Source: a virus. Taken from it: 21,778 nt of DNA. Each line of letters begins with the position of its first letter. The stretch's first letter is position 1. The position numbers and the translations under genes were made by a program. The notes below the pieces were generated by a model. It ran no database searches, had not been told where the DNA came from, and saw nothing but the letters and a program-made list of their open reading frames with translations. This document shows positions 4,287 through 20,585 of this stretch, one piece after another. The stretch spans positions 1 through 21,778 of the IMG/VR virus record IMGVR_UViG_3300025687_000378; one strand, written 5' to 3'.

Positions 4287-4953
4287 ATCCGTTTCTCCCG
4301 TTGTGTGGGCACTCCATCACAACGCAGTGGGCTTTACACAATCCAGACGTACGGGGGTTCCAAACATCCTGCTCATACGCCGATTTAAGCCGATTGTAAT
4401 CGGTCAGCCATTTTTCCCATAGCCTCGGCTCGTCGTCCTTGCTGTACTCCGCCTTGACAAAATCCTGCGAGATTACGAACGCCAGCCCTGCTTTCACGTG
4501 GGTCACCTGCGGGAAGTGTTTGAAGGTGGCAAGTGCCATCAACTCAAGCTGCCCTCGGTCGGCGTACTTGGCCGATTTCCCAGTCTTGTAATCAATAACT
4601 TTCGCCTTGTCCCCGTTCAGAATCAGCAGGTCGACAATACCCCGCCACCACACATCAGGGGATTTGAATCCGCACGGCTCCAGATTCTCGGTCAACCCTA
4701 ACTCGTACTCACACAGCTTCTCCCCCTCCATCGCATTAAGTTTTTCTAATGCGGTTTGGGCGAACTTGAACTGCGGTGGAATCGGCGTGCCGTCCCGTAC
4801 GTACTCCTCGGCAGCCTTGTGGAAAGCCGTGCCATAGAGCATGGCTTCGGTCTCCTTCTCTCTGTAGTCCCGTGCTACTTTCAGGTGGTAGTACTTCTTC
4901 GGGCACTGCTCAAAGGTCTTAATGCTACTGAACGACCACGCTGGGATTTTCAT
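4276..4953 (-). CDS. Cas4/RecB-like PD-(D/E)XK exonuclease with predicted iron-sulfur cluster
   Basis: 225 residues. Seen: SFSSIKTFEQCPKKYYHLKV at residues 8-27 (first cluster cysteine), GTAFHKAAEEY near 42 (catalytic His), RGIVDLLIL near 104 (Asp), VIDYKTGK near 118 (DxK), QLELMAL near 135, and GLCKAHCVVMECPHNGR near the end (three more cysteines). This is the complete plan of Cas4/AddB-type nucleases: four cysteines clamping a 4Fe-4S cluster around a RecB nuclease core. The phage form probably processes DNA ends in replication or recombination. There is no CRISPR context, so a role in spacer acquisition is not indicated. The start overlaps the polymerase stop (ATGA), showing translational coupling. 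Confidence 0.88.
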   Translation of the reverse strand: MKIPAWSFSSIKTFEQCPKKYYHLKVARDYREKETEAMLYGTAFHKAAEEYVRDGTPIPPQFKFAQTALEKLNAMEGEKLCEYELGLTENLEPCGFKSPDVWWRGIVDLLILNGDKAKVIDYKTGKSAKYADRGQLELMALATFKHFPQVTHVKAGLAFVISQDFVKAEYSKDDEPRLWEKWLTDYNRLKSAYEQDVWNPRTSGLCKAHCVVMECPHNGRNGYAL

Positions 4954-9838: not shown

Positions 9839-10231
9839 TTACAAAGACCAGAACAGTGCGACAAGCGCAATAACGAGACCGACGCCGATGAATACACCAA
9901 CACCATCTACCTTGCGCTTAGCTTCACTGCTAATGGGTGGCTCATCAACGTGTACAAAGCCGCCAGCTTCTACTCCAGACACCAAAACATTCTCGGAACT
10001 GGTATCAGGTTTCTCAGCAGCCATCGGGTTTGTAACCTTCGGCAACTCGGCTTTCTTGGATTCAGCCTTCTTCGGAATAGAACCGATACCTTTCTTCTTG
10101 TTCATTTGGTAGCGTGTGGTGTAAACCATCTGCGGATTAACACCCAGCTTCTTAACAATCGCCTTGGTATCAGCGCCAGCTTCCAACATCTTGCGCACCT
10201 TTGCGCTCTTACTTTCTACTTTCTTAGCCAT
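9839..10231 (-). CDS. Membrane-anchored helix-turn-helix DNA-binding protein
   Basis: 130 residues from the ATG at 10231 (GGAGA upstream). Seen: a basic start, then VRKMLEAGADTKAIVKKLGVNPQMVYTTRYQMNKKKG at about 12-48, a clear helix-turn-helix of the type found in small phage DNA-binding proteins; a long Pro/Ala/Lys-rich linker (about 50-105); and a C-terminal hydrophobic segment GVGVFIGVGLVIALVALFWSL (110-130) that can span the membrane. The predicted topology puts the DNA-binding part in the cytoplasm. This could tether phage DNA or a promoter to the membrane. Palindrome copy 1 lies 24 nt before its start, after a terminator, which suggests its own control. Confidence 0.75.
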   Translation of the reverse strand: MAKKVESKSAKVRKMLEAGADTKAIVKKLGVNPQMVYTTRYQMNKKKGIGSIPKKAESKKAELPKVTNPMAAEKPDTSSENVLVSGVEAGGFVHVDEPPISSEAKRKVDGVGVFIGVGLVIALVALFWSL

Positions 10232-10255: not shown

Positions 10256-10272
10256 GTTATACGCCGTATAAC
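10256..10272. repeat. 17-bp palindrome, copy 1
   Basis: GTTATACGCCGTATAAC, 24 nt upstream of the membrane-anchored HTH gene start and 5 nt beyond the terminator T-run of the gene before. Confidence 0.9.
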
Positions 10273-10277
10273 ACGTT

Positions 10278-10304
10278 AAAAGGTCGGGGGTGTTACCCCC
10301 CGAC
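10278..10304 (-). terminator. Rho-independent terminator
   Basis: Leftward GTCGGGGG (10297-10304) pairs with CCCCCGAC (10283-10290) around the loop GTAACA, followed by C-TTTT. It ends the operon of the genes from 14914 to 10320. The loop is the same hexamer as in the terminator at 663-699. Confidence 0.85.
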
Positions 10305-10319
10305 AAGCCCTCTCACTAC

Positions 10320-10583
10320 TCACACCATAGGTCGGTAGACCCAAAATGTACTTGCATCAACACGCATCCCAATGCCATCTACCTCATCACGAGGCGGGGG
10401 AATCTTGGTCATCATCAATAAGGCCAGACGTTCTTGTACCCAGTCGGGTAGAGCGTCCACTGAAGAATACTCACCCTCTATATCATGGTCAAGAACATTC
10501 ATACCCAGACACATAACTTCTACAGTATTAGTATCACGTGATATATGGATGCGGTAGATGTCATCATCTTTTACGTCGCTCAT
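10320..10583 (-). CDS. Conserved small phage protein, unknown function
   Basis: 87 residues. Seen: DIYRIHISRDTNTVEVMCLGMNVLDHDIEGEYSSVDALPDWVQERLALLMM, then IGMRVDASTFWVYRP. It looks like one alpha/beta domain and belongs to a small conserved phage family with a 'VEVMCLG-DHDIEGEY-LPxWVQERLA' core; no function is known to me. It overlaps the preceding gene by ATGA and is followed by a terminator. It seems to accompany the preceding 324-residue protein. Confidence 0.8.
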   Translation of the reverse strand: MSDVKDDDIYRIHISRDTNTVEVMCLGMNVLDHDIEGEYSSVDALPDWVQERLALLMMTKIPPPRDEVDGIGMRVDASTFWVYRPMV

Positions 10584-11554
10584 ACATGTAGCCAGTAAGT
10601 TGTTTCGTTGTGTTTGTATCCAACACCCTCGACGTACTCGTCGTTACCCAGTATGGACAGCACTGATACTTTCTCCACAACATCTTCCGGTACGTCATCT
10701 GACTGAAAGGACTGCACGATCGGCGCACTACCATCCTTGAATGACATATAGACATCACCATTCCTGTACTCAGTGTCCACCGTGTGAACTACCTGCCGAC
10801 CAAATCGCTGTGCGATATTGACGAATTTCACAGGAAACTGTAGGTCGTGTTCACTCAGTATCTTCTCAGCATCTACCCATTCCGCAATTAGGTCACGGAA
10901 CGTAGGATCAGCGAACTCATACCCAGTGTTGAGCATGTGCCGAAACTCCTTGAAGATTGGTCTGTCTTTACTCACGTAGATGGAACCCACCAGCTTCTCC
11001 CGTGCGTCGGACTCGGCACGCTCGAACTTGCGTAAGTACTGGCGCATCCTATCGCCTGCTTCGCTACGCGACAGTGCTGCAACCTCGGTCGGATTCCAGC
11101 GGCGCAGATTCTTCTTCGCCTCACGCAGCATACGCTTCATGTCGTTACCTGCACGTGTGTGGTACGCATGGTTGTGTCGGGAATACCGCTCGTTGCTAAT
11201 CAGTCGGCTCTGCACTATGTACTTGTTTACCCCTGAGTTGTCAGGGCCATAGGCAATCTGACCGAGGATGAACTCGTCCTCCTCGTAGTACACGGACAAC
11301 ACGTCATAGTTTCTAGTCACGTAGTGGCCGAACGCAGGGCCGAACTTGATACCCCGCATCTGGCTGCGCAACTCACAAGCGAAGTCATACAACTCAATGC
11401 TGGTGATGTTCACACCATCCACGTCTGGTAACTCCGCGTATTGTAGAGGGGGCACCAACTGCTCTGCTAGTTTCTGCTGCATGTCAGCATGTAGCTTCCG
11501 GATATGCGCGACGGTTGTTTTTGTCGCTGAATTGTTTATTCCTACATTCATCAT
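10580..11554 (-). CDS. Conserved phage protein of unknown function (324 residues)
   Basis: Seen: a helical N-terminus (VAHIRKLHADMQQKLAEQL), an alpha/beta middle (GHYVTRNYDVLSVYYEEDEFILGQI), and a strongly basic helical stretch MKRMLREAKKNLRRWNPTEVAALSRSEAGDRM (about 138-169) that could contact DNA or RNA. The C-terminal half is mixed and ends in beta-like sequence. No catalytic motif is recognised. Palindrome copy 2 sits 12 nt before its ATG with AAGGAGA between them. It is coupled to the 87-residue gene and follows the VWA gene, so it may belong to the MoxR-VWA module. Confidence 0.75.
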   Translation of the reverse strand: MMNVGINNSATKTTVAHIRKLHADMQQKLAEQLVPPLQYAELPDVDGVNITSIELYDFACELRSQMRGIKFGPAFGHYVTRNYDVLSVYYEEDEFILGQIAYGPDNSGVNKYIVQSRLISNERYSRHNHAYHTRAGNDMKRMLREAKKNLRRWNPTEVAALSRSEAGDRMRQYLRKFERAESDAREKLVGSIYVSKDRPIFKEFRHMLNTGYEFADPTFRDLIAEWVDAEKILSEHDLQFPVKFVNIAQRFGRQVVHTVDTEYRNGDVYMSFKDGSAPIVQSFQSDDVPEDVVEKVSVLSILGNDEYVEGVGYKHNETTYWLHV

Positions 11555-11566
11555 CTCATTCTCCTT

Positions 11567-11583
11567 GTTATACGCCGTATAAC
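11567..11583. repeat. 17-bp palindrome, copy 2
   Basis: GTTATACGCCGTATAAC. It directly abuts the stop codon of the VWA gene (11584) and lies 12 nt before the next start, with AAGGAGA immediately after it on the leftward strand. Confidence 0.95.
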
Positions 11584-12762
11584 TTATCCGTTAATGTGTA
11601 CGTACTTACCCACAGTCGGCTTGGCGTGGGGATTACCTGCAACACACCACAGTAGTGGCTGCGTCCACTTACCCCATGTCGGCACGTAGCCATCAGTCAG
11701 CACCACCACAGCCTGCGCATTGATCTTGTGCTCAGTCATGTAGTCAGGTACGCACTGCGGGTGAGTGCCACCACCACCCCTCGGCTTAGTCGACTGGATC
11801 AACTTGTCCATGTTGGACGCGTCGTATGTCTCATCACCGGATACGCGGGTACCCCAATACAAGAGTCGCACTCGATTCGGCTTGACTGCATCGACGACAC
11901 CCTTCACCTCGGACAGAAACGTAGTCAACTCACGCTGTGCAATCGAGCCGGATGTATCGACAGCGATCACCAACTCGTCAACGGTCTCACTGATACCGGA
12001 TGGCATGTACACACCTGCACCTATGTATCTACGGTTGGGTCGTGCCCACGTAGAGTAATCACCACCTGTACATGTGCTGGTAATAAACTCACGTAGTGCT
12101 GCACGCCAGTCAACTTGTGGCTTGAGTAATGCGTCGATGTCACGTGTGGTCGCACCGTTGATCTTGCCTGCGGCCAGCGCACCTTGTCGGATGGCCTCGT
12201 CGATCTCACGCTCTAGTGCCTGTGCATCCTCGGCGCTCATCTCCTTGGCATCTTCCCAGCCGTGCTCGTCCATACCATCACCAACTGCTGTGTTGGATGA
12301 CCCATTGGTACTCTGTCCATCATCACGCAGTATCTTAAACACCTGTGCTGCAGTCATACCACGGAACCGCTCGTCCAGTAGTCCACCGTCAGGCATCTTG
12401 GCGAAGCCATCGGCGCAGTCGTCAGCGATCTTCTGGTTGATAACGTAGTCGCACGCCATGTTCGCAAGCTGGTTGTCCTCATCCCACAGCGCACGCCATG
12501 TGGTCAGGTGCTTGTACAGTTTGTGGTACGTCTCGTGCAACACAAGAAAGCGCAGTTCAGGATCTGTCAAATTATCGACAAACCCACGCCCAAACTTGTC
12601 ATCACGTCCGTTTGTATACGCGGTCTGCACGTCATCTGCGACAGTCTTCTCGCCGATCATCATCACACCGGCAAGTGCTACGTAGCGTGGGTCGCCCATG
12701 ATCTTGACCACAGCCTTACTCAGTCGCTGCTCAGCGGTCAGTTGTTTACCTATCATTAACAT
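11584..12762 (-). CDS. DUF2201-type predicted metallopeptidase with VWA domain
   Basis: 392 residues. Seen: HETYH at 76-80 inside LRFLVLHETYHKLYKH, followed by NMACDYVIN, the putative zinc-peptidase signature of the DUF2201 N-terminal family; an acidic, polar linker (about 145-200); and a VWA domain with the MIDAS motif DTSGS at 269-273, a Thr in GGGGTHPQ near 337 and LTDGY near 358. Such proteins pair with MoxR AAA+ ATPases, with the VWA part acting as adaptor or substrate binder. Here the MoxR gene is directly upstream (copy 3 of the palindrome between). The start at 12762 has AGGAGA. It may remodel or cleave a phage or host protein. Both the peptidase and MIDAS residues look intact. Confidence 0.87.
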   Translation of the reverse strand: MLMIGKQLTAEQRLSKAVVKIMGDPRYVALAGVMMIGEKTVADDVQTAYTNGRDDKFGRGFVDNLTDPELRFLVLHETYHKLYKHLTTWRALWDEDNQLANMACDYVINQKIADDCADGFAKMPDGGLLDERFRGMTAAQVFKILRDDGQSTNGSSNTAVGDGMDEHGWEDAKEMSAEDAQALEREIDEAIRQGALAAGKINGATTRDIDALLKPQVDWRAALREFITSTCTGGDYSTWARPNRRYIGAGVYMPSGISETVDELVIAVDTSGSIAQRELTTFLSEVKGVVDAVKPNRVRLLYWGTRVSGDETYDASNMDKLIQSTKPRGGGGTHPQCVPDYMTEHKINAQAVVVLTDGYVPTWGKWTQPLLWCVAGNPHAKPTVGKYVHING

Positions 12763-12773
12763 AACGATCTCCT

Positions 12774-12790
12774 GTTATACGGCGTATAAC
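12774..12790. repeat. 17-bp palindrome, copy 3
   Basis: GTTATACGGCGTATAAC. It directly abuts the stop codon of the MoxR gene (12791) and lies 11 nt before the VWA gene start. Confidence 0.95.
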
Positions 12791-13882
12791 TCACACCTTG
12801 TCGGCTGCGAACATGTAGTTGTTCTGGCGTGCCCAATCCGTGAACTTGCGGTTGTTCATCACCATCGCGCGTTTGCTGTACTTCTCATCCTTCACGCCGT
12901 TGGCGAACATACCCTGTGCCTCTGCATCGAGACGTGGCATGTAGTCCATCCACGCATCAACCCATGAGTTGTCAAGCGCACCCATCGTGCGGTACACCAC
13001 CATGCACACAGCAGCGGGAGACGTCGGCACCTTCGCACCCATCGGGTCGGTCTTGATTGACTCAAGTGTGGGTAGCTGGTCGAGCATGCGCACGTATGCC
13101 ATCAGGTCAGTCGCACCACGTTCACCGATTGTTCCGATCAGCGCAGCAGTCAGCGTCATGTCGTCCATGTGCTCACGCATCCACAACAGGTCAGACGCGG
13201 CGTGCATTGATCTCGGCGTAGTGCACGCGAGACGGTCGGCTGCCCGTGGGTGGTTGATGTACGGATTCTCGTCAGGGTCAGACACCTCCTCGTATGACTG
13301 GAATATCTGCGGGTAATCCTTGGAGAATGACAACACAGCAGGGTGCAGGTTGTGGTTGATGCCGTACTCGATGAACTCACGGCTACTCACATTGCGCAGC
13401 TTGACCACAATAATGCGGTTGCGTGCGTGTGGTGGCACCACGTCGCCCAGTCCCTCACTGCCGAGGTTAGTGGTCGCAAAGATTACGCTGTCAGGGTGCA
13501 GTGTGTAGCTACCGATCTTGCGCTCCAACATCAGACGCAGCAGGGCGTTCTTCACCGCAGGGTTGGCCTTGCCGTACTCGTCGATCATCAGCGCAATCGG
13601 CTTGTCGATGTGCACACCCAACTCCTCGTTGGTCAGGTAGGTCACGAACCCAGTGCCATCATCTAACTTGCTAATGTTTGGGATCGTGATGTCACCCAAG
13701 TCCTTGGTTGTCGCGTCGAAATACACGGGGGTCAGCCCAGTCTCCTCGGCAATGTCCCACAGCATGGATGATTTGCCGTTACCCATCGGGCCTTGCACGA
13801 GCACCGTGCGCTTGTGGCCTACGGATTGAATCAGGTTCTTGCACTGGTCGAGGTTAAGTGCATACATGTCGGTCGTTTTCAT
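12791..13882 (-). CDS. MoxR-type AAA+ ATPase
   Basis: 363 residues. Seen: GPMGNGKSS at 31-39 (Walker A), LMIDEYGKA at 98-106 (Walker B), ATTNLGSEGLGD from 136 (sensor 1 region), PPHARNR (arginine finger area) and a C-terminal helical lid region. The order and the DEYGKANPAVKNALLRLMLE stretch match MoxR/CobS-like ATPases. These act with VWA proteins to load metals or mature protein complexes. Here the next gene downstream is a VWA protein and the gene before is DUF3150-like, a known kind of three-gene neighbourhood. The start at 13882 follows copy 4 of the palindrome and AAGGAGA. Energy-driven remodelling of an unknown target is the likely role. Confidence 0.92.
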   Translation of the reverse strand: MKTTDMYALNLDQCKNLIQSVGHKRTVLVQGPMGNGKSSMLWDIAEETGLTPVYFDATTKDLGDITIPNISKLDDGTGFVTYLTNEELGVHIDKPIALMIDEYGKANPAVKNALLRLMLERKIGSYTLHPDSVIFATTNLGSEGLGDVVPPHARNRIIVVKLRNVSSREFIEYGINHNLHPAVLSFSKDYPQIFQSYEEVSDPDENPYINHPRAADRLACTTPRSMHAASDLLWMREHMDDMTLTAALIGTIGERGATDLMAYVRMLDQLPTLESIKTDPMGAKVPTSPAAVCMVVYRTMGALDNSWVDAWMDYMPRLDAEAQGMFANGVKDEKYSKRAMVMNNRKFTDWARQNNYMFAADKV

Positions 13883-13894
13883 ATCAATCTCCTT

Positions 13895-13911
13895 GTTATA
13901 CTGTGTATAAC
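13895..13911. repeat. 17-bp palindrome, copy 4
   Basis: GTTATACTGTGTATAAC, 12 nt before the MoxR start. Its centre TGT is the most divergent, but both 7-nt arms are intact. Confidence 0.95.
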
Positions 13912-13942
13912 ATCTGGTTGTAAGTAAGTGAGTTTTGTGGTT

Positions 13943-14914
13943 TTACATATCAAGTGATGGCAGCGCAGCGATGGCCTCATCGACTGCACGCTTAGTTGTC
14001 GCACGCAGGTATGAGTCCTCACGTAGTGCTTCTGGTGTTACACCGCGCAGGGTATCCTCCAACTTGGCACGCATGGCTTCCATCTGGGTGTCGTGCGTCA
14101 CGTTACACACCGACAACAACTCCACGATGTCGAGCACGTTGTCCACCAGTGAGTCACGGAAAATCTTTTTGTTCTCGTCGGTCTGGTAGTCGAGTCGCTC
14201 GGACATTTTTGCCAGTGCTGTATGTGCACGTTTCCACACGTCACCCATCGCGTTCGCTAATTGATCCGCGTAGTACGACTGATAGTGCGTGGTGAGTTGT
14301 TCTGCTGCGTCATTGCCCACGTCCACGCGGAAGTCTCCAGCTTCTGGCAGCGGCATGTAATTCATCCGGAACTTGAACTTGTGCTCCAGCGAATCACGCG
14401 ACGGGTACTCGTCAGGATTAAATAACCCCCCAAGTTTTGTGTGTACCTGCGCGATCGACCAGTCGTATGAGTCGAGGAACTGCGCAACTAAGTCCTCGTA
14501 CTCCTGCTGCAACGCGGTCATCTGCTCTTGGTACTTGAAGAACTGCGCTGTCGGTAGTAGTCGCAACCCCGTGTCAGACCACGGCATTGTCATCGCATAG
14601 TGCACGTTGCGTGCGTTGGCCGTGAACTTCTGCACTGCGCTCAATTCGGCACTGTCGCCAAGCAGTTTCTTGTTCACCGTGGCAATGCCTGCGTCTGCGT
14701 GGTTACTTGCCACCACATCTTTACTCGCGCGCTTGTCCAGCTTGCGCCCTGTCCACGTCGAGATGGACAACTCCACCAGCATGGCCGCACTGCTGATCGA
14801 TGGCACACTGATCTCTGGTGCCTGTGCGGTTGGGTTCACACTCGGTTGCGTGTGGTTGATGTCGTATACGTTGTTCACGTGTGTGTTGTTACTCAATGAA
14901 ACAGTAGTGTTCAT
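13943..14914 (-). CDS. DUF3150-like protein accompanying MoxR/VWA
   Basis: 323 residues. Seen: ISSAAMLVELSISTWTGRKLDKRASKDV at about 40-67, followed by a helical region (ARNVHYAMTMPWSDTGLRLLP) and MNYMPLPEAGDFRVDVGNDA near 190, then long helices to the end. The start and order match my memory of DUF3150-type proteins, found next to MoxR ATPases and VWA proteins in proteobacteria and phages. No enzymatic motif is known. The start at 14914 follows copy 5 of the palindrome and AAGGAGA. It is the first gene after the consensus promoter at 15008-15036. It probably forms one complex with the MoxR and VWA proteins; that link is inferred from position. Confidence 0.7.
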   Translation of the reverse strand: MNTTVSLSNNTHVNNVYDINHTQPSVNPTAQAPEISVPSISSAAMLVELSISTWTGRKLDKRASKDVVASNHADAGIATVNKKLLGDSAELSAVQKFTANARNVHYAMTMPWSDTGLRLLPTAQFFKYQEQMTALQQEYEDLVAQFLDSYDWSIAQVHTKLGGLFNPDEYPSRDSLEHKFKFRMNYMPLPEAGDFRVDVGNDAAEQLTTHYQSYYADQLANAMGDVWKRAHTALAKMSERLDYQTDENKKIFRDSLVDNVLDIVELLSVCNVTHDTQMEAMRAKLEDTLRGVTPEALREDSYLRATTKRAVDEAIAALPSLDM

Positions 14915-14926
14915 GTCGTTCTCCTT

Positions 14927-14943
14927 GTTATACGGCGTATAAC
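14927..14943. repeat. 17-bp palindrome, copy 5
   Basis: GTTATACGGCGTATAAC, 12 nt before the DUF3150-like gene start. It lies inside the leader of the transcript from the promoter at 15008-15036. Confidence 0.95.
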
Positions 14944-14977
14944 GTAGTTTCTGGGTGTGCCGATGGCACTGGCGTAT

Positions 14978-14999
14978 GTGTGAGAGGGTTCTCTCAGCA
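14978..14999 (-). other. Hairpin at the 5' end of the transcript
   Basis: Leftward TGAGAG-AACC-CTCTCA with flanking GTG/CAC. It begins within a few bases of the start expected from the promoter at 15008-15036. It could protect the mRNA 5' end. Confidence 0.6.
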
Positions 15000-15007
15000 C
15001 TGTGTAT

Positions 15008-15036
15008 ATTATACTAAACGTAGTATCTAATGTCAA
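15008..15036 (-). promoter_or_regulatory. Consensus sigma-70 promoter, leftward
   Basis: TTGACA (15031-15036), 17-nt spacer, TATAAT (15008-15013): a perfect match. The bases before the -35 (ACTAC) also precede the promoter at 16394-16422. It drives the DUF3150-like, MoxR, VWA and following genes down to the terminator at 10278-10304. Confidence 0.92.
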
Positions 15037-15063
15037 GTAGTTATATCTGGTGGTACTCTGCGT

Positions 15064-15414
15064 TCACGCGTCCATCACCACGGGCACGATGTTCAGTGCG
15101 TACGCAGTCCGGTCGATGCCGCATATTGTCACGCCCATCACATCAGTCCGTTCTAGGATCAACGCCTCTATCTGCTCCACCGTCGGGTTGTATGTGAACT
15201 CTAAGTCGCACTCCCCTGTGTATCCGTCGGACAGAATGTACGGTGCGAACTCATGGTGCCTGTCGTGTGGCACGAGGTACTCCTGTGCCAGCAGCTTCTC
15301 GCTCACGGCATACGCAGCCCACTCGGGTCGCGAATACGCACCCAGTATTGCCACGTTCTGCATCAATACCCACACGATCGGGTTCTTGTCTGTTGTGTTC
15401 ATCTCGTTTGTCAT
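15064..15414 (-). CDS. Hypothetical phage protein
   Basis: 116 residues. Seen: a beta-like start (NPIVWVLMQNVAILGAYS), a helix EWAAYAVSEKLLAQEYLVP, then TVEQIEALILERTDVMGV and a short final strand region. It looks like a small alpha/beta fold; no family or active site is recognised. The start at 15414 follows copy 6 of the palindrome with AAGGAGA. It ends shortly before the strong promoter at 15008-15036, so it belongs to the earlier short operon from the promoter at 16394-16422. Confidence 0.7.
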   Translation of the reverse strand: MTNEMNTTDKNPIVWVLMQNVAILGAYSRPEWAAYAVSEKLLAQEYLVPHDRHHEFAPYILSDGYTGECDLEFTYNPTVEQIEALILERTDVMGVTICGIDRTAYALNIVPVVMDA

Positions 15415-15426
15415 CTCAGTCTCCTT

Positions 15427-15443
15427 GTTATACGGCGTATAAC
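15427..15443. repeat. 17-bp palindrome, copy 6
   Basis: GTTATACGGCGTATAAC. Read leftward, TTATACGCCGTATAA encodes Leu-Tyr-Ala-Val-stop, the end of the 188-residue gene. The next start is 12 nt on. Confidence 0.95.
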
Positions 15444-15994
15444 ATCTCGGTTAGCCACTCAGGGCGGGGGCGTTTTGTGTAGAACAAGATGTTGGCCTTG
15501 TCATTCACGTAGTACCTGCGGTAGCTGGTCACGGCATCCTCCACCGCCGCGTCGAGCGAGTCGCCCTCCATGCGCACGCAGTGCCCGACCTTGTACTCAT
15601 CTGGCATAGCCAGTGCGAACGGTGTCATACCGTGTCTGTCTTTGAGTTTTTCTGGTGTTTTAGCCACGATTTTGTGCAGCTTCTGGAACGTCAAGTGCTC
15701 CTTGTTGTAGCGGTATGTGTACTCACCCGCTAAGGCATAAAAGTGTCGCACCAGCCATCCGTAGTTTTCGGCACTGCGTCCAGCCCACAATGTGCACGGG
15801 TGGTGTATGTGCGTGGGTCGGTATAAGAGTGCATCGAGTGCTTGGTCTGCTGGGTTGTTTTTGTCGAACATACTGTACGCACGCTGGATGGTACTCAGCA
15901 TCTGTCCGGTTTCTAACGTCATTTTCACTACGTGCTTATCGCACTGCATCTGGGCAGCACGCACGGGGTCACGGTCAAGTGCAAAGATATTCAC
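15428..15994 (-). CDS. Conserved phage protein (MNIFxLDxDPxxAAQxxCDKHVVKM family)
   Basis: 188 residues from a GTG at 15994 with AGGAGA upstream. Seen: MNIFALDRDPVRAAQMQCDKHVVKMTLETGQMLS at the start, HIHHPCTLWAGRSAENYGWL near 61-81, and TPFALAMPDEYKV then YRRYYVNDKANILFYTKR near the end. The conserved Asp, Cys, His, Lys and HHPC residues look like an active or metal site. This family is widespread in phages and I know no proven function; a DNA-repair glycosylase has been suggested by some annotations but I cannot support it here. Its last codons and stop lie within palindrome copy 6, and copy 7 lies before its start. Confidence 0.8.
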   Translation of the reverse strand: MNIFALDRDPVRAAQMQCDKHVVKMTLETGQMLSTIQRAYSMFDKNNPADQALDALLYRPTHIHHPCTLWAGRSAENYGWLVRHFYALAGEYTYRYNKEHLTFQKLHKIVAKTPEKLKDRHGMTPFALAMPDEYKVGHCVRMEGDSLDAAVEDAVTSYRRYYVNDKANILFYTKRPRPEWLTEMLYAV

Positions 15995-16013
15995 GTTGTT
16001 CTCCTGTTATCTT

Positions 16014-16030
16014 GTTATACGCTGTATAAC
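16014..16030. repeat. 17-bp palindrome, copy 7
   Basis: GTTATACGCTGTATAAC, 19 nt before the GTG start of the 188-residue gene and 6 nt after the stop of the previous gene. Confidence 0.92.
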
Positions 16031-16036
16031 TGCAAT

Positions 16037-16273
16037 TTAGATGTTGGCACCCATCGCACGCAGTCGAGAGCGCGTGGTGCGCGTCGGCCAGTCGGCGAGT
16101 GTGGTGTGATTCACGGTGGGTTGTCCGGTGTAGCTGTGCACATCGGCAATGTGATTACCGAATAAATACACAGCGACGCGTTCGGCATCAATCGGCTTTA
16201 CCTCGGTGTTGTCTTTACGCCATGCGGTGTGTGCATGGATGGCTTGCATCATGTCGCGTTCGATCTTTCTCAT
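16037..16273 (-). CDS. Conserved small phage protein, unknown function
   Basis: 78 residues. Seen: RKIERDMMQAIHAHTAWRKDNTEV (helix), RVAVYLFGNHIADV (strands), and TLADWPTRTTRSRLRAMGA near the end. This small family ('W..gNTeV....v.lhGn.Ia......tlagWpT.tTrsRLnAlg') recurs in phages and plasmids with unknown function. The start at 16273 has AGGAGA; palindrome copy 8 lies 39 nt upstream. It is the first gene after the promoter at 16394-16422, so it is likely an early gene. Confidence 0.8.
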   Translation of the reverse strand: MRKIERDMMQAIHAHTAWRKDNTEVKPIDAERVAVYLFGNHIADVHSYTGQPTVNHTTLADWPTRTTRSRLRAMGANI

Positions 16274-16312
16274 GTCGTTCTCCTGTTGTGTGTGGTGTTG
16301 GCAGGAGACGGT

Positions 16313-16329
16313 GTTATACGGCGTATAAC
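16313..16329. repeat. 17-bp palindrome, copy 8
   Basis: GTTATACGGCGTATAAC, in the leader of the transcript from the promoter at 16394-16422 and 39 nt before the first gene of that operon. Confidence 0.95.
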
Positions 16330-16344
16330 AGAGCGGGGACTAGG

Positions 16345-16360
16345 ACGCTCCACAGAGCGT
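16345..16360 (-). other. Leader hairpin after the first leftward promoter
   Basis: ACGCTC-TGTG-GAGCGT, a perfect 6-bp stem about 27 nt into the predicted transcript. Confidence 0.5.
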
Positions 16361-16393
16361 ACACGCCGAGCCCATCTCCCACCAACAAGATAT

Positions 16394-16422
16394 ATTATAC
16401 GGTATTTTGAGTTCTGTGTCAA
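16394..16422 (-). promoter_or_regulatory. Consensus sigma-70 promoter, first leftward promoter
   Basis: TTGACA (16417-16422), 17-nt spacer, TATAAT (16394-16399). The -10 context CCGTATAA matches one half-site of the 17-bp palindrome. It shares ACTACTTGACA with the promoter at 15008-15036. Confidence 0.92.
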
Positions 16423-16429
16423 GTAGTGA

Positions 16430-16960
16430 AGTTTCGTGTTACTGGGTGTGGAGAAGTGTAATGTTCCGCAAAGTTCTGTAATGTACCGCAAATGTTCCGT
16501 TACGTGGGTCTGTAAGTGCATGAAATTAAAACTTTGTTCTAATGTTCGCTTTCAAAAACCGAGGGGGGGTCTACGGAAATCTGCGGGGCGAAAAACGCGA
16601 AAAGGTACAAACGTCGGGGGCCGCGCAGCGACTGAAAATTATGTCTCTACCCTTTTTTTCCAAGAAAAGGAACATTAGGTAAGTATGTAAAGAATAGATA
16701 TAAATAGATAATATATGATAGATAAATAAATACATAATTCTAAACAATCGCTGGCTGCAGATCACCAAACTGCACGAAACTGCAATGTACCTTTTGTGAT
16801 TTTGAAAACGGAACATTAGGAACATTACACCTGTGCATAAATACGAAAACATGTAGAACTATCAATGACTTAGTGTAAAACAGGGTCTGAACCAAAAAGG
16901 AACAAAAGAAAGGTACATTAGACGCCACGCTGCTCGTGATAACTGGCATCAGTGTGCAAA
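16430..16960. other. Candidate replication origin: GGWACATTA repeats around an AT-rich tract
   Basis: No convincing gene is present. TAATGTTCC-like copies at 16459, 16479, 16491 (partial) and 16540 face GGAACATTA-like copies at 16669, 16810, 16819 (the last two in direct tandem) and 16912; another AATGTACC is at 16784. The first two copies sit in a 16-base direct repeat with a 20-nt step (16457-16472, 16477-16492). Between them, 16678-16745 is nearly all A and T, suitable for strand opening. Iterons plus an AT-rich element at the divergence of leftward and rightward arms fit an origin. No binding protein is identified. Confidence 0.5.
16928..16951 (+). repeat. 24-bp direct repeat, left copy (flanks HNH gene)
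   Basis: Begins CGCTGCTCGTG and ends AACTGGCATCA. It matches 17425-17448 at 23 of 24 positions; the difference is A versus G at position 12. Confidence 0.85.
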
Positions 16961-16967
16961 TTAGGGG

Positions 16968-16996
16968 TTGACAGGGGTGATTTTTTAGTTTAATCT
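16968..16996 (+). promoter_or_regulatory. Probable promoter for the HNH gene
   Basis: TTGACA (16968-16973), 17-nt spacer, TAATCT (16991-16996); TTTAAT at 15 nt is an alternative -10. It is the only rightward TTGACA-type promoter before the HNH start. Confidence 0.55.
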
Positions 16997-17013
16997 GCGG
17001 TCTTCCCGCAGAT
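16993..17013 (+). other. Hairpin in the HNH leader
   Basis: ATCTGCGG (16993-17000) pairs with CCGCAGAT (17006-17013) around TCTTC. It sits at or next to the expected transcript start and just before the GGAGAG ribosome site. Confidence 0.65.
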
Positions 17014-17026
17014 CGCGGAGAGAGCG

Positions 17027-17332
17027 ATGCGATTCAAGTTATCTCAACATTGGTATACAAAGCACCGTGCGTTGGTGCTAGAACGTGATGGGCGGGTTTG
17101 CCATTACTGTGGTAAGGCATTACCACTTAAAAGTTCGGCTTGTTTGGATCATGTTGTGCCTAGGTCGAAAGGTGGTAGCGACGATCCGGATAATTTAGTA
17201 GTGGCCTGCAAACGGTGTAATACACAGAAAGGTAACGCCGATTTGGGTGTGTATATCGCCAGACGTTTGGCGCATATAGATCGGGAGCGCAAGCGATTAC
17301 TAGAACTCGCCGAGTGCTTACCTGAAGATTGA
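17027..17332 (+). CDS. HNH endonuclease next to the terminase genes
   Basis: 101 residues. Seen: VCHYCGKALP near 24-33, CLDHVVPRSKGGSDDPDNLVVACKRCNTQKGN at about 39-70: two CxxC pairs for structural zinc, the DH catalytic pair and the final N of the HNH motif. This is the McrA-like free-standing HNH type. Phages with this kind of HNH near terminase genes may use it to help cut DNA for packaging; alternatively it is a homing or selfish nuclease. The start at 17027 has GGAGAG. It is bracketed by 24-bp direct repeats (16928, 17425) and has palindrome copies 9 and 10 downstream, so it might be a separate insertion. Confidence 0.9.
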   Translation: MRFKLSQHWYTKHRALVLERDGRVCHYCGKALPLKSSACLDHVVPRSKGGSDDPDNLVVACKRCNTQKGNADLGVYIARRLAHIDRERKRLLELAECLPED

Positions 17333-17335
17333 CTT

Positions 17336-17352
17336 GTTATACGCTGTATAAC
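17336..17352. repeat. 17-bp palindrome, copy 9
   Basis: GTTATACGCTGTATAAC, 3 nt after the HNH stop codon. No start codon follows on either strand at the usual distance. Confidence 0.92.
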
Positions 17353-17424
17353 AACGCAATAGCTCGTCCCACTTCACTTTCATCCTTGCCCGAGTCCGTG
17401 CCGATTCCTGTGCGTTTCGCCCGC

Positions 17425-17448
17425 CGCTGCTCGTGGTAACTGGCATCA
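17425..17448 (+). repeat. 24-bp direct repeat, right copy
   Basis: 23 of 24 bases match 16928-16951. Together they enclose the HNH gene, its promoter and palindrome copy 9. Confidence 0.85.
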
Positions 17449-17470
17449 TCTCCCACTTGCGTGGGATCGT

Positions 17471-17487
17471 GTTATACGCGGTATAAC
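17471..17487. repeat. 17-bp palindrome, copy 10
   Basis: GTTATACGCGGTATAAC, intergenic between the HNH gene and the terminator of the opposing gene. It is not next to a start codon. Confidence 0.92.
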
Positions 17488-17502
17488 TTACTTTCTCAGG
17501 GC

Positions 17503-17529
17503 AAAAAAAAGCCCCGCCGAAGCGGGGCT
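17503..17529 (-). terminator. Strong rho-independent terminator
   Basis: Leftward AGCCCCGC-TTCG-GCGGGGCT followed by eight T (the last stem T included). The UUCG-type tetraloop and long U-run are textbook. It lies 7 nt after the stop of the gene at 17537. Confidence 0.95.
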
Positions 17530-17536
17530 GTTGTGG

Positions 17537-18022
17537 TTACAGATCAGCGATCAATTCGCGGAGCGTCTTGACCACAACGTCGGCGTCGAATGCAAGATCG
17601 CCTTCACTCTTTTGCGCCTTGTTGATTGCTTCGATCTGCGCTTTCCATTCATCACGCAGGCGCTCTTCGATACTGCGGCGATGGCTCGCGCCTTTCGGGC
17701 TCTTCGGCCGTAGATGCTGCTGAATCAGGGCAAGGTATCGACCGATGCGCTGCTGCAATTCGCGGCGCTCAGCCTTCTCACCTTCACTCAGAGTAGCTGG
17801 CGCCTTCGCCAGCAATTCTTGCTGCGCCTTGTTGAATGCGCCGATCACGACGAGCTTCATCGGTTCACGATGTTGGCCTTTCGGCGCCAGCGTGTCCGCA
17901 GTGATGCCTTCGACCTTACAGGCGTCGGACACCTTGACCCATTGTTTATCCGCAGCGCTTACTGCTTTGAGTGCACCGATTACTGCGCTAGTTGTGGTCG
18001 CGCTGATAGTTACGTTTTCCAT
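17537..18022 (-). CDS. Hypothetical helical phage protein
   Basis: 161 residues from the ATG at 18022, which has AGGAGA eight bases upstream; the open frame extends to 18097 but without a ribosome site. Seen: ISATTTSAVIGALKAVSAADKQWVKVSDACKVEGITADTLAPKG, then MKLVVIGAFNKAQQELL, EGEKAERRELQQRIGRYLALIQQHLRP, a basic PKSPKGASHRRS linker and a helical end. It is largely helical and may oligomerise. Similar proteins occur near terminase genes in some short-tailed phages; no function is known. It is a single-gene leftward unit with its own leader hairpin and terminator. Confidence 0.75.
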   Translation of the reverse strand: MENVTISATTTSAVIGALKAVSAADKQWVKVSDACKVEGITADTLAPKGQHREPMKLVVIGAFNKAQQELLAKAPATLSEGEKAERRELQQRIGRYLALIQQHLRPKSPKGASHRRSIEERLRDEWKAQIEAINKAQKSEGDLAFDADVVVKTLRELIADL

Positions 18023-18053
18023 TGTCGTTTCTCCTAGTATTGAAACGTTGCAC

Positions 18054-18085
18054 CGAAGCGGGATTGCTTCGATGGACACATGATA
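18054..18085 (-). promoter_or_regulatory. Possible leftward promoter -10 and leader hairpin
   Basis: TATCAT (18080-18085) is a plausible -10 and is followed about 9 nt on by the hairpin CGAAGC-AATCCC-GCTTCG (18054-18071). The matching -35 is poor. GTTATCATG occurs twice here, 26 nt apart. Confidence 0.4.
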
Positions 18086-18152
18086 ACAAAACAGCACAAA
18101 AAAGCATGATAACTCACCCCTAAATAGACCCCGATAGACTAGGCGCTGCTAT

Positions 18153-18169
18153 GTTATACGGCGTATAAC
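18153..18169. repeat. 17-bp palindrome, copy 11
   Basis: GTTATACGGCGTATAAC, in the gap between the divergent leftward gene at 18022 and the rightward terminase operon. It is not next to a start codon. Confidence 0.95.
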
Positions 18170-18388: not shown

Positions 18389-19036
18389 ATGAATATGATG
18401 CTCAGTCCTGATATTGGGGTGCCTCTTTCCCCCGATGTGGATTTCGACGATCTGCGGAAGTACGCAGAGGCGGCGTGTAACACTGCGTTCGAGCTAAGTG
18501 AACACGGGTTAAACATTACGCCTGATGTAGGCGATCAAGATGTTGCCGCTAAAGTTGTTACTGCGTATGCAGAAAACGAGAAGCTGACCAACCAAAAGGT
18601 GACATTGCAGCGGGCGTCAAAGATGACTCCGGCTTCTCTCGTGCTGGTCCGTGGGATTCTCGACGAGTTCGGCACTGCAGTTGCCAACAATGCTGCAGAA
18701 ATCCGTCACCTCGTCACCAATAAACTCCTCACTGAAACCGAAAACCCAGACCCACGGATACGCATTCGTGCCTTGGAGCTGCTGGGTAAAATCTCGGATG
18801 TTGGACTGTTTGCCGAGAAGACTGAAGTCACGATTACTCATCAGAGTACGGATGACCTGCGGAAAAGGCTGCGAGAGAAATTCGACCGGTTACGGCAGTT
18901 GGACGACGAGATCACCGACGTCACCTTGGATGGGGAGGTGCTGAACCTTGACGAGCTTACCGGTGTTGAGCTTGAAGGGGAGGTAGAAGAGGTGCACTAC
19001 GACGACGAGGAAGAGGCTGCGGATGAACGCAGTTGA
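18389..19036 (+). CDS. Terminase small subunit
   Basis: 215 residues. Seen: an acidic start (DVDFDDLRKYAEAACN), a helical middle (KMTPASLVLVRGILDEFGTAVANNAAEIRHLVTN), RIRALELLGKISDVGLFAEKTEVTITHQSTDDLRKRLREKFDRL near 125-168, and a very acidic tail (EEVHYDDEEEAADE). The 'LELLGKISDVGLF-EKTEVTITHQ' block is characteristic of small terminases in phages of this kind. The protein would bind the packaging site and pass DNA to the large subunit. ATG 18389 lacks a good ribosome site; ATG 18395 is an alternative. It overlaps TerL by 14 nt. Confidence 0.85.
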   Translation: MNMMLSPDIGVPLSPDVDFDDLRKYAEAACNTAFELSEHGLNITPDVGDQDVAAKVVTAYAENEKLTNQKVTLQRASKMTPASLVLVRGILDEFGTAVANNAAEIRHLVTNKLLTETENPDPRIRIRALELLGKISDVGLFAEKTEVTITHQSTDDLRKRLREKFDRLRQLDDEITDVTLDGEVLNLDELTGVELEGEVEEVHYDDEEEAADERS

Positions 19037-20585
19037 GGCGGTCGTTGAAGACTTTACGGATGCTGAGATCGAGGAGATCCTCGAAAATCTGGACGCTTTT
19101 ACCCCTGATGAGCAGCGCGAAATTCTCGATATTGCCGAGACGCTGGAACAGCGGAAGCGTGCGACAGCCTGCTACAACGATTTAATCGCCTTTTGTAAAC
19201 ACATCCAGCCGGATTATAAGGTGGGTAAACACCACCGCATTCTGGCAAATCTGCTGATGGACGTGGCGGAGGGTAAAAAAGACCGTATTTGCGTCAATAT
19301 CCCACCTCGTCACGGTAAATCCCAGCTTGTTTCCATCTATTTTCCAGCGTGGTTTCTGGGTAGGCACCCCGATAAAAAGGTAATGATGGTCTCCCACACC
19401 ACCGATTTGGCTGTGGATTTCGGTCGAAAGGTGCGTAATTTGATCGCATCCGAGGCGTATAAGGACATATTCCCGACAGTGACGCTGGCGGCTGACTCTA
19501 AATCTGCTGGTCGGTGGAACACGAACTCAGCCGGTGAGTACTACGCGTGTGGTATTGGCTCGGCGCTCGCTGGTCGCGGTGCGGATCTCCTCCTCGTGGA
19601 CGACCCCCACTCGGAACAGGACGTCATCAACGGGAATTTTGAGGTGTTCGAGAAGGCGTACGAGTGGTTCACATTCGGTGCGCGTACACGTCTCATGCCG
19701 GGAGGGCGCGTAGCGATTATCCAGACCCGATGGCATCTCGATGACCTGACTGGGCGTGTTGTTCGGGACATGGCGAAGAATGATCTGGCCGACCAGTACG
19801 AGGTTGTTGAGTTTCCGGCGATCTTGACAGTAGAGGACAAGCAGACCCACAAGATGGTGGAGAAACCGCTGTGGCCTGAGTTCTTCGACCTCCCCGCCCT
19901 GCAGCGTACAAAAGCGTCCATGCCGGTGTTCCAGTGGAACGCCCAGTATCAGCAGCAACCGACCGCAGAAGAAGCGGCGATTGTGAAGCGGGAATGGTGG
20001 AATATCTGGGGGAACGACAATCCGCCCCCGTGTGAGTACATCATAATGAGTCTCGACGCCGCAGCAGAAACCCACAACCGTGCCGACTTCACAGCACTCA
20101 CGACGTGGGGGGTGTTCCTCAACGAGGAGACCGAGGCGTACAACATCATCTTACTTAATAGTGTGAAGGACCGGTTTGAGTTCCCCGAATTAAAGGCGAT
20201 GGCGCTCCGCCAATGGCAGGAGTGGGAGCCTGATGCGTTTATCGTGGAAAAGAAATCAGCGGGTACGGCGCTGTATCAAGAAATGCGTAGGACGGGCATG
20301 CCGGTGCAAGAATATACGCCACATAGGGGTTCCGGCGATAAATTGGCGCGGTTAAACTCTGTTTCTGACATCGTTGCATCTGGGTTATGCTGGGTGCCTC
20401 AGACCCGTTGGGCTGAAGAAGTCGTCGAGGAAATCGCAGGATTTCCGTTTATGAGCCATGATGACTTGGTGGATAGCACCGTCATGGCGTTGATGCGGTT
20501 CCGTCAAGGCGGATTTATTCGACTGCCAACGGATGAACCCGAGGAAATTCGCTACTTTAAGCAGCGCCGAGGCGGGTACTACTAA
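19023..20585 (+). CDS. terL: Terminase large subunit (packaging ATPase and nuclease)
   Basis: 520 residues. Seen: acidic N-terminus; PPRHGKSQ at 94-101 (Walker A); LLLVDDPHS from 189 (Walker B); QTRWHLDDLTGR from 234 (coupling motif); then the nuclease domain with IIMSLDAAAETHNRADFTA (Asp at 345 and 355), DAFIVEKKSAGTALYQEM and a final SHDDLVDS near 485. The ATPase pushes DNA into the head and the RNase H-like nuclease cuts concatemers. Length and motif set are complete and normal. Its start overlaps the TerS stop and both are read from the promoter at 18330-18359. The family resemblance is to the GpA/Gp17-type superfamily; the exact cutting mode (headful or cos) cannot be read from this. Confidence 0.96.
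   Translation: MNAVEAVVEDFTDAEIEEILENLDAFTPDEQREILDIAETLEQRKRATACYNDLIAFCKHIQPDYKVGKHHRILANLLMDVAEGKKDRICVNIPPRHGKSQLVSIYFPAWFLGRHPDKKVMMVSHTTDLAVDFGRKVRNLIASEAYKDIFPTVTLAADSKSAGRWNTNSAGEYYACGIGSALAGRGADLLLVDDPHSEQDVINGNFEVFEKAYEWFTFGARTRLMPGGRVAIIQTRWHLDDLTGRVVRDMAKNDLADQYEVVEFPAILTVEDKQTHKMVEKPLWPEFFDLPALQRTKASMPVFQWNAQYQQQPTAEEAAIVKREWWNIWGNDNPPPCEYIIMSLDAAAETHNRADFTALTTWGVFLNEETEAYNIILLNSVKDRFEFPELKAMALRQWQEWEPDAFIVEKKSAGTALYQEMRRTGMPVQEYTPHRGSGDKLARLNSVSDIVASGLCWVPQTRWAEEVVEEIAGFPFMSHDDLVDSTVMALMRFRQGGFIRLPTDEPEEIRYFKQRRGGYY

Follow-up and report, generated by a model that had tools for sequence, protein, structure and literature searches.

The 21,778 bases of the IMG/VR virus record IMGVR_UViG_3300025687_000378 (positions 1 to 21,778, hereafter "the window", which is the whole stretch of DNA that we analysed) contain eleven copies of the palindrome GTTATAC-N3-GTATAAC. 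Among related phages, the type of this palindrome switches together with one phage gene, here called c10, and with the residues of one helix in its product. From these sequence comparisons, we consider it probable that the palindromes are DNA operators for c10, a phage-encoded and putatively dimeric regulator that would roadblock or silence the early operon in a stoperator-like manner. Related aquatic viruses would most likely each carry their own version of the sites and the regulator, with both changed together.

Palindrome arrays in the window and in related phages

Both 7-bp arms are invariant in all eleven copies, only the 3-bp centre varies, and the centres of the two half-sites are 10 bp apart in this 17-bp form. 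A preliminary description of the window, made from its letters alone, had listed these copies and confined them to the region between 10.2 and 18.2 kb, and we could verify both points. The chance expectation for the palindrome was 0 copies across 100 shuffles of the window, and the limits of the array hold because a window-wide search for a twelfth copy, allowing three mismatches, yielded none. The genes of the palindrome region are on the minus strand (for a plus-strand HNH gene within it, see below), and eight of the eleven copies are associated with gene starts. Copies 2 to 6 were correctly described as standing 11-12 nucleotides (nt) upstream of an ATG together with (A)AGGAGA, and those at 10256, 16014 and 16313 precede a start with a Shine-Dalgarno sequence by 24, 19 and 39 nt. 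The rightmost copies, at 17336, 17471 and 18153, are intergenic and without a start within 60 nt.

The window belongs to a large, apparently uncultured phage group that sample context and named relatives suggest to be mostly marine. Megablast of the window against 50,697 named phages gave no match, the nearest TerL proteins of named phages (Pelagibacter phages included) are 45-46% identical, and at least 600 IMG/VR stretches encode a TerL relative. We found no published precedent for this group in the openly licensed literature. We compared related viral loci, designated by L-numbers (e.g., L230). A palindrome family with at least three copies was present in 35 of 100 loci related by TerL, VWA or the motif, many of which stop short of the operon (0 of 200 shuffles), and in the corresponding operon of 79 of 80 loci fetched by ATPase alignment, L242 being the one without. 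In the controls for the latter set, none of 80 shuffles had such a family; of 63 control viral loci, 4 did, three of them being relatives found by the motif. A chance origin of the palindromes was rejected given these 80 shuffles of relatives and the 100 shuffles of the window.

The palindromes of relatives are symmetric and 13-19 bp long, and their arms differ between phages and hardly within one phage. The arm types include GTTAGTG-N3, GTTAGTC-CACG, GTTATGC-CACG, TTTACGG-AATT, TTTAGGG-AATC, TCTATAC-AGT, TGTAGTG-ACT and GTTGGTC, among others. The preliminary description had made the significance of the motif depend on its presence at the same places in relatives; a palindrome is indeed found there, usually not with the same letters. 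In eight records searched whole, GTTAGTG-N3-CACTAAC occurs in 4-9 exact copies each and in one region only. After de-duplication by flanks (416 sites for the analysis of centres, 379 for location), 298 of 379 sites lie outside conserved open reading frames (ORFs), although such ORFs make up 71% of the span, and the 221,155 bases of late-gene DNA contain none of the 379. One contig (L039/L102) has five copies of the core palindrome of the window within a longer one, about AGGTTATACG...CGTATAACCT, and c10 was not found in the two stretches of it that we examined.

Palindrome type and the c10 gene

The switching of types is clearest in two pairs of nearly identical phages that differ in their palindromes. 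L230 and L235 share 99% identity in each of MoxR, TerL and TerS, and L233 and L236 share 98%, 100% and 99%, respectively. At several corresponding positions in both pairs, the switched palindromes are embedded in near-identical flanks, while flanks elsewhere could not be anchored. Each pair has a single large stretch that cannot be aligned (L230 7094-8242; L233 7051-7999), and it holds one shared gene, c10, whose products are only 20% and 23% identical within the two pairs. Between L230 and L235 there are also smaller gaps, none longer than about 200 bases. In the window, c10 adjoins terS, has its own terminator and is bordered by palindromes on both sides.

An iterated profile detected c10 in 118 loci. 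Of the TerL relatives, 72 have 4 kb or more of upstream DNA. Both c10 and palindromes are present in 57 of these and both are missing from 5; another 6 have palindromes alone, and 4 have c10 alone. Those 4 came from the motif scan described below, each with one or two GTTATAC copies. HTVC023P, HTVC027P and 023Pt_psg01, three of the named phages nearest to the window in TerL, have neither c10 nor a comparable array; the structural genes of HTVC023P contain one short palindrome in three copies, and the other two phages had no palindrome family. The identity of c10 separated same-type from different-type pairs with an area under the curve (AUC) of 0.91 (94 versus 312 pairs from 29 distinct loci, to which the 39 c10-bearing loci among 65 loci of at least 9 kb were reduced), a value reached by 0 of 500 label permutations. 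The AUC was 0.95 among loci with MoxR identity of at least 75%, and 0.99 at 85% or more (13 versus 12 pairs). For other genes the AUC was 0.59-0.83 over the whole set and no higher than 0.70 among the closest loci, and with associations below that of c10 the other operon genes were rejected as the type determinant. Small ORFs between c10 and DUF3150 were too narrowly shared for this analysis.

The same link appears when starting from the site. We scanned viral contigs for the exact palindrome of the window, and of the 120 stretches listed, 23 encode c10 and 18 had at least two sites; a scrambled palindrome gave 0 stretches with c10 and 1 with at least two sites among 120. Of the 23 with c10, 22 have an exact site no more than 236 nt from the c10 ORF, and the copy next to c10 in L069 deviates at one base; L046, also among the 23, is a near-copy of the window itself. 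The c10 proteins closest to that of the window come from these motif-found phages, plus L286 and L289, which are of another type, and the MoxR of the motif-found phages (61% in L045) is less similar to that of the window than is the MoxR of several phages of other types. The palindrome type of L125 as a query found 14 stretches, none with c10, and L125 itself ends before the c10 region. Taken as a comparison of sequences, these results argue strongly for a link between c10 and the palindrome.

The product of c10 is a basic protein (median isoelectric point, pI, of 9.4 over 118 homologues and 9.2 in the window) with an all-helical structure model (predicted local distance difference test score of 91.4). 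A tblastn search of the c10 of L279 against named phages gave no match. The columns of c10 that share most mutual information with palindrome type are in the helix spanning residues 80-104, at residues 99, 95, 93, 100 and 103. In 80 c10 sequences having a palindrome call, clustered at 60% identity, residue 99 tracks the innermost base of the palindrome arm: it is Asp in 21 of 23 clusters with a half-site ending in G and in 0 of 12 with one ending in C, and Lys or Arg in 9 of the 12 and 0 of the 23. The p-value of this column is 1e-7 and that of the next-best column 6e-4, both optimistic because of shared ancestry. If Lys or Arg faced G and Asp faced C on the opposite strand, the base contacts would be of an ordinary kind.

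Possible action of the sites and alternative explanations

We then considered where the sites lie relative to promoters, counting a promoter as strong if it matched 11 or all 12 of the consensus bases. The operon strand has 49 strong promoters; in 42 of them the -10 element is followed by a site centre at a distance of 52-216 nt, and none of the 49 overlaps a site. The opposite strand has eight strong promoters, none closely followed by a site. Rows were not de-duplicated, and overlapping or near-identical contigs (for example, L264/L268 and L279/L288) are counted repeatedly. As no strong promoter overlaps a site, a classic promoter operator was rejected, and the position of the sites downstream argues against repression of initiation and for an action on elongation or on the leader.

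We propose that the palindrome presents two 7-bp half-sites about one helical turn apart, to which the c10 product would bind as a small basic dimer, c10 being the gene that opens this operon. Bound c10 would act 50-200 nt downstream of promoters and at gene junctions, not at the promoters themselves, and would there block or weaken RNA polymerase as it crosses the early/replication operon. It would also autoregulate its own gene, and the site-free late operon would be spared. Silencing of superinfecting phages of the same type may drive the diversification of types. An operator for an unseen repressor was one of two readings offered in the preliminary description, and it gains support from the way in which site type follows the phage gene c10 and one c10 helix.

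Several observations weigh against this proposal. Palindromes occur without a detected c10 in 6 of the 72 TerL relatives (L155, L160, L192, L205, L239 and L127), in which the regulator at the corresponding place may be unrelated or more divergent. Some same-type pairs are only 19-29% identical in c10, and DUF3150 reaches an AUC of 0.83 in the broad set and 0.85 at MoxR identity of at least 75%. Conserved ORFs, as called, contain 81 of the 379 sites. The c10 model has a predicted template modelling score of only 0.59, no Pfam or PHROG family is common to c10 members and no DNA-binding domain was recognised in them, and fold searches with the model gave no match at E<=0.001 (the best VIA Z was 5.3, which is not meaningful for a helical model). 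The c10 of the window has Leu at residue 99, outside the pairing of Lys or Arg with C. Lastly, a simple symmetric dimer is weakened by the centre trinucleotides, which are oriented in some phages (257 same versus 160 reverse pairs overall); those of the window show no orientation (12 versus 10).

Among the alternatives, it is unlikely, though deserving of some weight, that the c10 sites serve another DNA function, such as activation or antitermination of the early operon, genome organisation, replication or segregation. The location of the sites away from promoters would suit such a role. It would also fit that lysogeny is not evident, because PF00589, PF00239 and PF13614 (integrase, resolvase and ParA families) had no match in 13 relatives, where the records, like the window, may be incomplete, and because one scan of 84,980 prokaryote genomes gave 33 pattern matches and no MoxR relative. 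For the similarly shaped repeats of Cluster O mycobacteriophages, a role in transcription initiation was also doubted by the authors in the available part of their report (PMC4351075). Against these other functions, the sites tile one operon gene by gene with none in the late operon, and promoter-site spacing is conserved, the palindrome beginning exactly 65 nt after each of the two perfect TTGACA-17-TATAAT promoters of the window, both on the minus strand.

We find it more doubtful still that c10 is an RNA-binding translational repressor and the palindromes are mRNA hairpins beside the Shine-Dalgarno sequence. The hairpin, which the preliminary description had proposed with a triloop, can fold as RNA (-5.3 kcal/mol), many sites touch the Shine-Dalgarno sequence, their position downstream of promoters means that they are transcribed, and the orientation of centres in some phages would also fit. 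However, deviating copies lose their pairing. Among 47 copies with a single arm change, 41 break pairing and only 6 still allow a G-U pair; with the outermost base left aside, the figure is 4 of 28. Chance would give about 1/6 to 1/4, so retention is not above chance and the half-sites vary independently; the compensation of arm changes that the preliminary description had suggested checking was thus not found. Several even-length types have self-complementary centres (AATT in 11 of 11 copies of L241 and 8 of 8 of L236), as expected for a DNA dyad, and copies 9-11 of the window lie away from starts.

Operators of a host regulator captured by the phages are very improbable: the window does have two perfect host-type promoters, but phages with TerL 99-100% identical differ in site type, together with c10. 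It is barely credible that recombination maintains the palindromes as mosaic-junction or repeat elements that no protein binds. They do sit at gene boundaries, but each phage has a uniform type, the type switches at many positions where the flanks are near-identical, and c10 residues track half-site bases.

Other window features, known repeats and implications

Table 1. Palindrome copies, genes and signals of the window (positions within the 21,778 bases)
Feature	Position	Strand	Remarks
Copy 1	10256..10272		24 nt before small gene with weak helix-turn-helix match
Copy 2	11567..11583		12 nt before ATG of ORF 10580-11554
Copy 3	12774..12790		11 nt before ATG of DUF2201/VWA-like gene
Copy 4	13895..13911		12 nt before ATG of AAA (MoxR-like) ATPase
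Copy 5	14927..14943		12 nt before DUF3150 ATG; begins 65 nt past -10 of consensus promoter
Copy 6	15427..15443		12 nt before ATG of ORF 15064-15414
Copy 7	16014..16030		19 nt before GTG of ORF 15428-15994
Copy 8	16313..16329		39 nt before ATG of ORF 16037-16273; begins 65 nt past -10 of consensus promoter
Copy 9	17336..17352		Intergenic
Copy 10	17471..17487		Just beyond c10 terminator
Copy 11	18153..18169		Upstream of c10, in gap before divergent terS
DUF2201 metallopeptidase + VWA-like gene	11584..12762	minus	
AAA (MoxR-like) ATPase	12791..13882	minus	phrog_1297
DUF3150 gene	13943..14914	minus	
Consensus promoter	15008..15036	minus	TTGACA-17-TATAAT
Pyr_excise gene	15428..15994	minus	Pyrimidine dimer glycosylase family
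Small gene	16037..16273	minus	Kyano_Gp96 family
Consensus promoter	16394..16422	minus	TTGACA-17-TATAAT
Intrinsic terminator	17510..17529	minus	Follows c10
c10	17537..18022	minus	Proposed cognate palindrome-binding regulator; 161 aa, pI 9.2, all-helical model
terS	18389..19036	plus	Assigned from position directly before terL; opens palindrome-free late operon
terL	19023..20585	plus	

The leftward operon runs through DUF3150, the MoxR-like AAA ATPase and DUF2201/VWA, then through nuclease and DNA polymerase genes, and terS and terL are transcribed in the opposite direction (Table 1). Searches of the window against Rfam and for tRNAs found no match and no tRNA. The gene at 11584-12762 is labelled HNH endonuclease by PHROG 1314 and matches a DUF2201 metallopeptidase plus VWA-like domain in Pfam, and the PHROG label looks wrong for this family. 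Directly after the leftmost palindrome, the gene at 9839-10231 (minus) encodes a small protein of 130 aa with a weak N-terminal helix-turn-helix match and a hydrophobic, membrane-like C-terminus; it was set aside as a candidate regulator because its family was not among the clusters shared by at least 12 loci. The DNA polymerase ORF (4950-7619, minus) has 889 aa versus a median of about 608 in relatives and looks to be interrupted by an intein, and a 247-aa ORF with a CapR-domain match (5566-6309) overlaps the insert on the same strand but in a different frame.

A second element, GA[AT][AG]CCAGTT, occurs in the window at 17447 and 16950 (minus) and in many loci among L211-L290. It often starts 4-9 nt past a palindrome and often extends to about 30 bp with the end GCGNNGAGCC, and in relatives it is found 215 times on the operon strand versus 13 on the opposite one, with 7 matches in 1.0 Mb of control DNA. 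The plus-strand HNH gene at 17027-17332 sits between two copies of this CCAGTT element (window 16930-17460), an arrangement suggestive of a mobile gene inserted into a repeated leader.

The preliminary description had likened the array to start-associated repeats and stoperators of mycobacteriophages, and this likeness was apt. Closest in shape is the 17-bp repeat TGTTCGG-N3-CCGAACA of the Cluster O mycobacteriophages (Corndog), for which the available part of the report describes 34 copies spread over the genome without a tie to starts, a third of them within genes, a single type shared by five close phages, and neither a function nor a binding protein (PMC4351075). Both systems have a 7-3-7 design with invariant arms, a variable centre and many copies, and according to the same portion of the report the intergenic copies of Cluster O also lie mostly in one leftward operon of phages lacking an integrase (PMC4351075). 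The arms of the window are GTTATAC rather than TGTTCGG, and the listed arm types of relatives differ from it as well. In contrast to Cluster O as described there, the copies here are restricted to an operon, often stand at starts, come in many types and have a candidate cognate gene.

In the Cluster A mycobacteriophages (L5 and relatives), stoperators are many sites away from promoters, and the accessible part of a report on them describes site motif and repressor as diverging together among phages (PMC6550527). The sites here are likewise many, away from promoters and mostly intergenic, and their motif appears to covary with the phage-encoded c10. Cluster A stoperators are reportedly 13-bp asymmetric, oriented sites bound by a monomeric repressor of temperate phages, which when bound ends elongation and gives immunity. 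Unlike these, the sites here are symmetric; no helix-turn-helix match was recognised in c10, and lysogeny is not evident in the records compared.

The start-associated sequences (SAS) and extended SAS (ESAS) of Cluster K are inverted repeats beside translation starts whose consensus varies among subclusters, and the portion of the report available to us describes a 13-bp asymmetric SAS, imperfect 17-bp repeats with 4-13 bp spacers and no cognate protein (PMC3203893). On that partial account, start association is the only feature that they have in common with the window array. No 13-bp SAS (GGGATAGGAGCCC) stands beside the window starts in the sequences that we read. The temperate Streptomyces phage phiC31 has many dispersed, conserved inverted repeats that are bound by one phage repressor, c, and its repeat sequence and protein family differ from those of the window.

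The natural type switches described here point to a specific gene, helix and residue, while repeats of the same shape in Cluster O have no assigned protein or function in the part of the report available. If our proposal is true, stoperator-like control, and possibly immunity typing, would exist in a widespread phage group that is apparently not temperate, and natural pairs such as L230/L235 and L233/L236 would allow a direct test of how a regulator and about ten dispersed sites evolve together. Tentatively, we also raise the possibility that c10 founds a new all-helical family of phage DNA-binding regulators with a readable residue-to-base code, and that apparently virulent aquatic phages fall into many heterotypic, immunity-like classes in which arrays and regulator may be replaced together under selection from superinfection by the same type.

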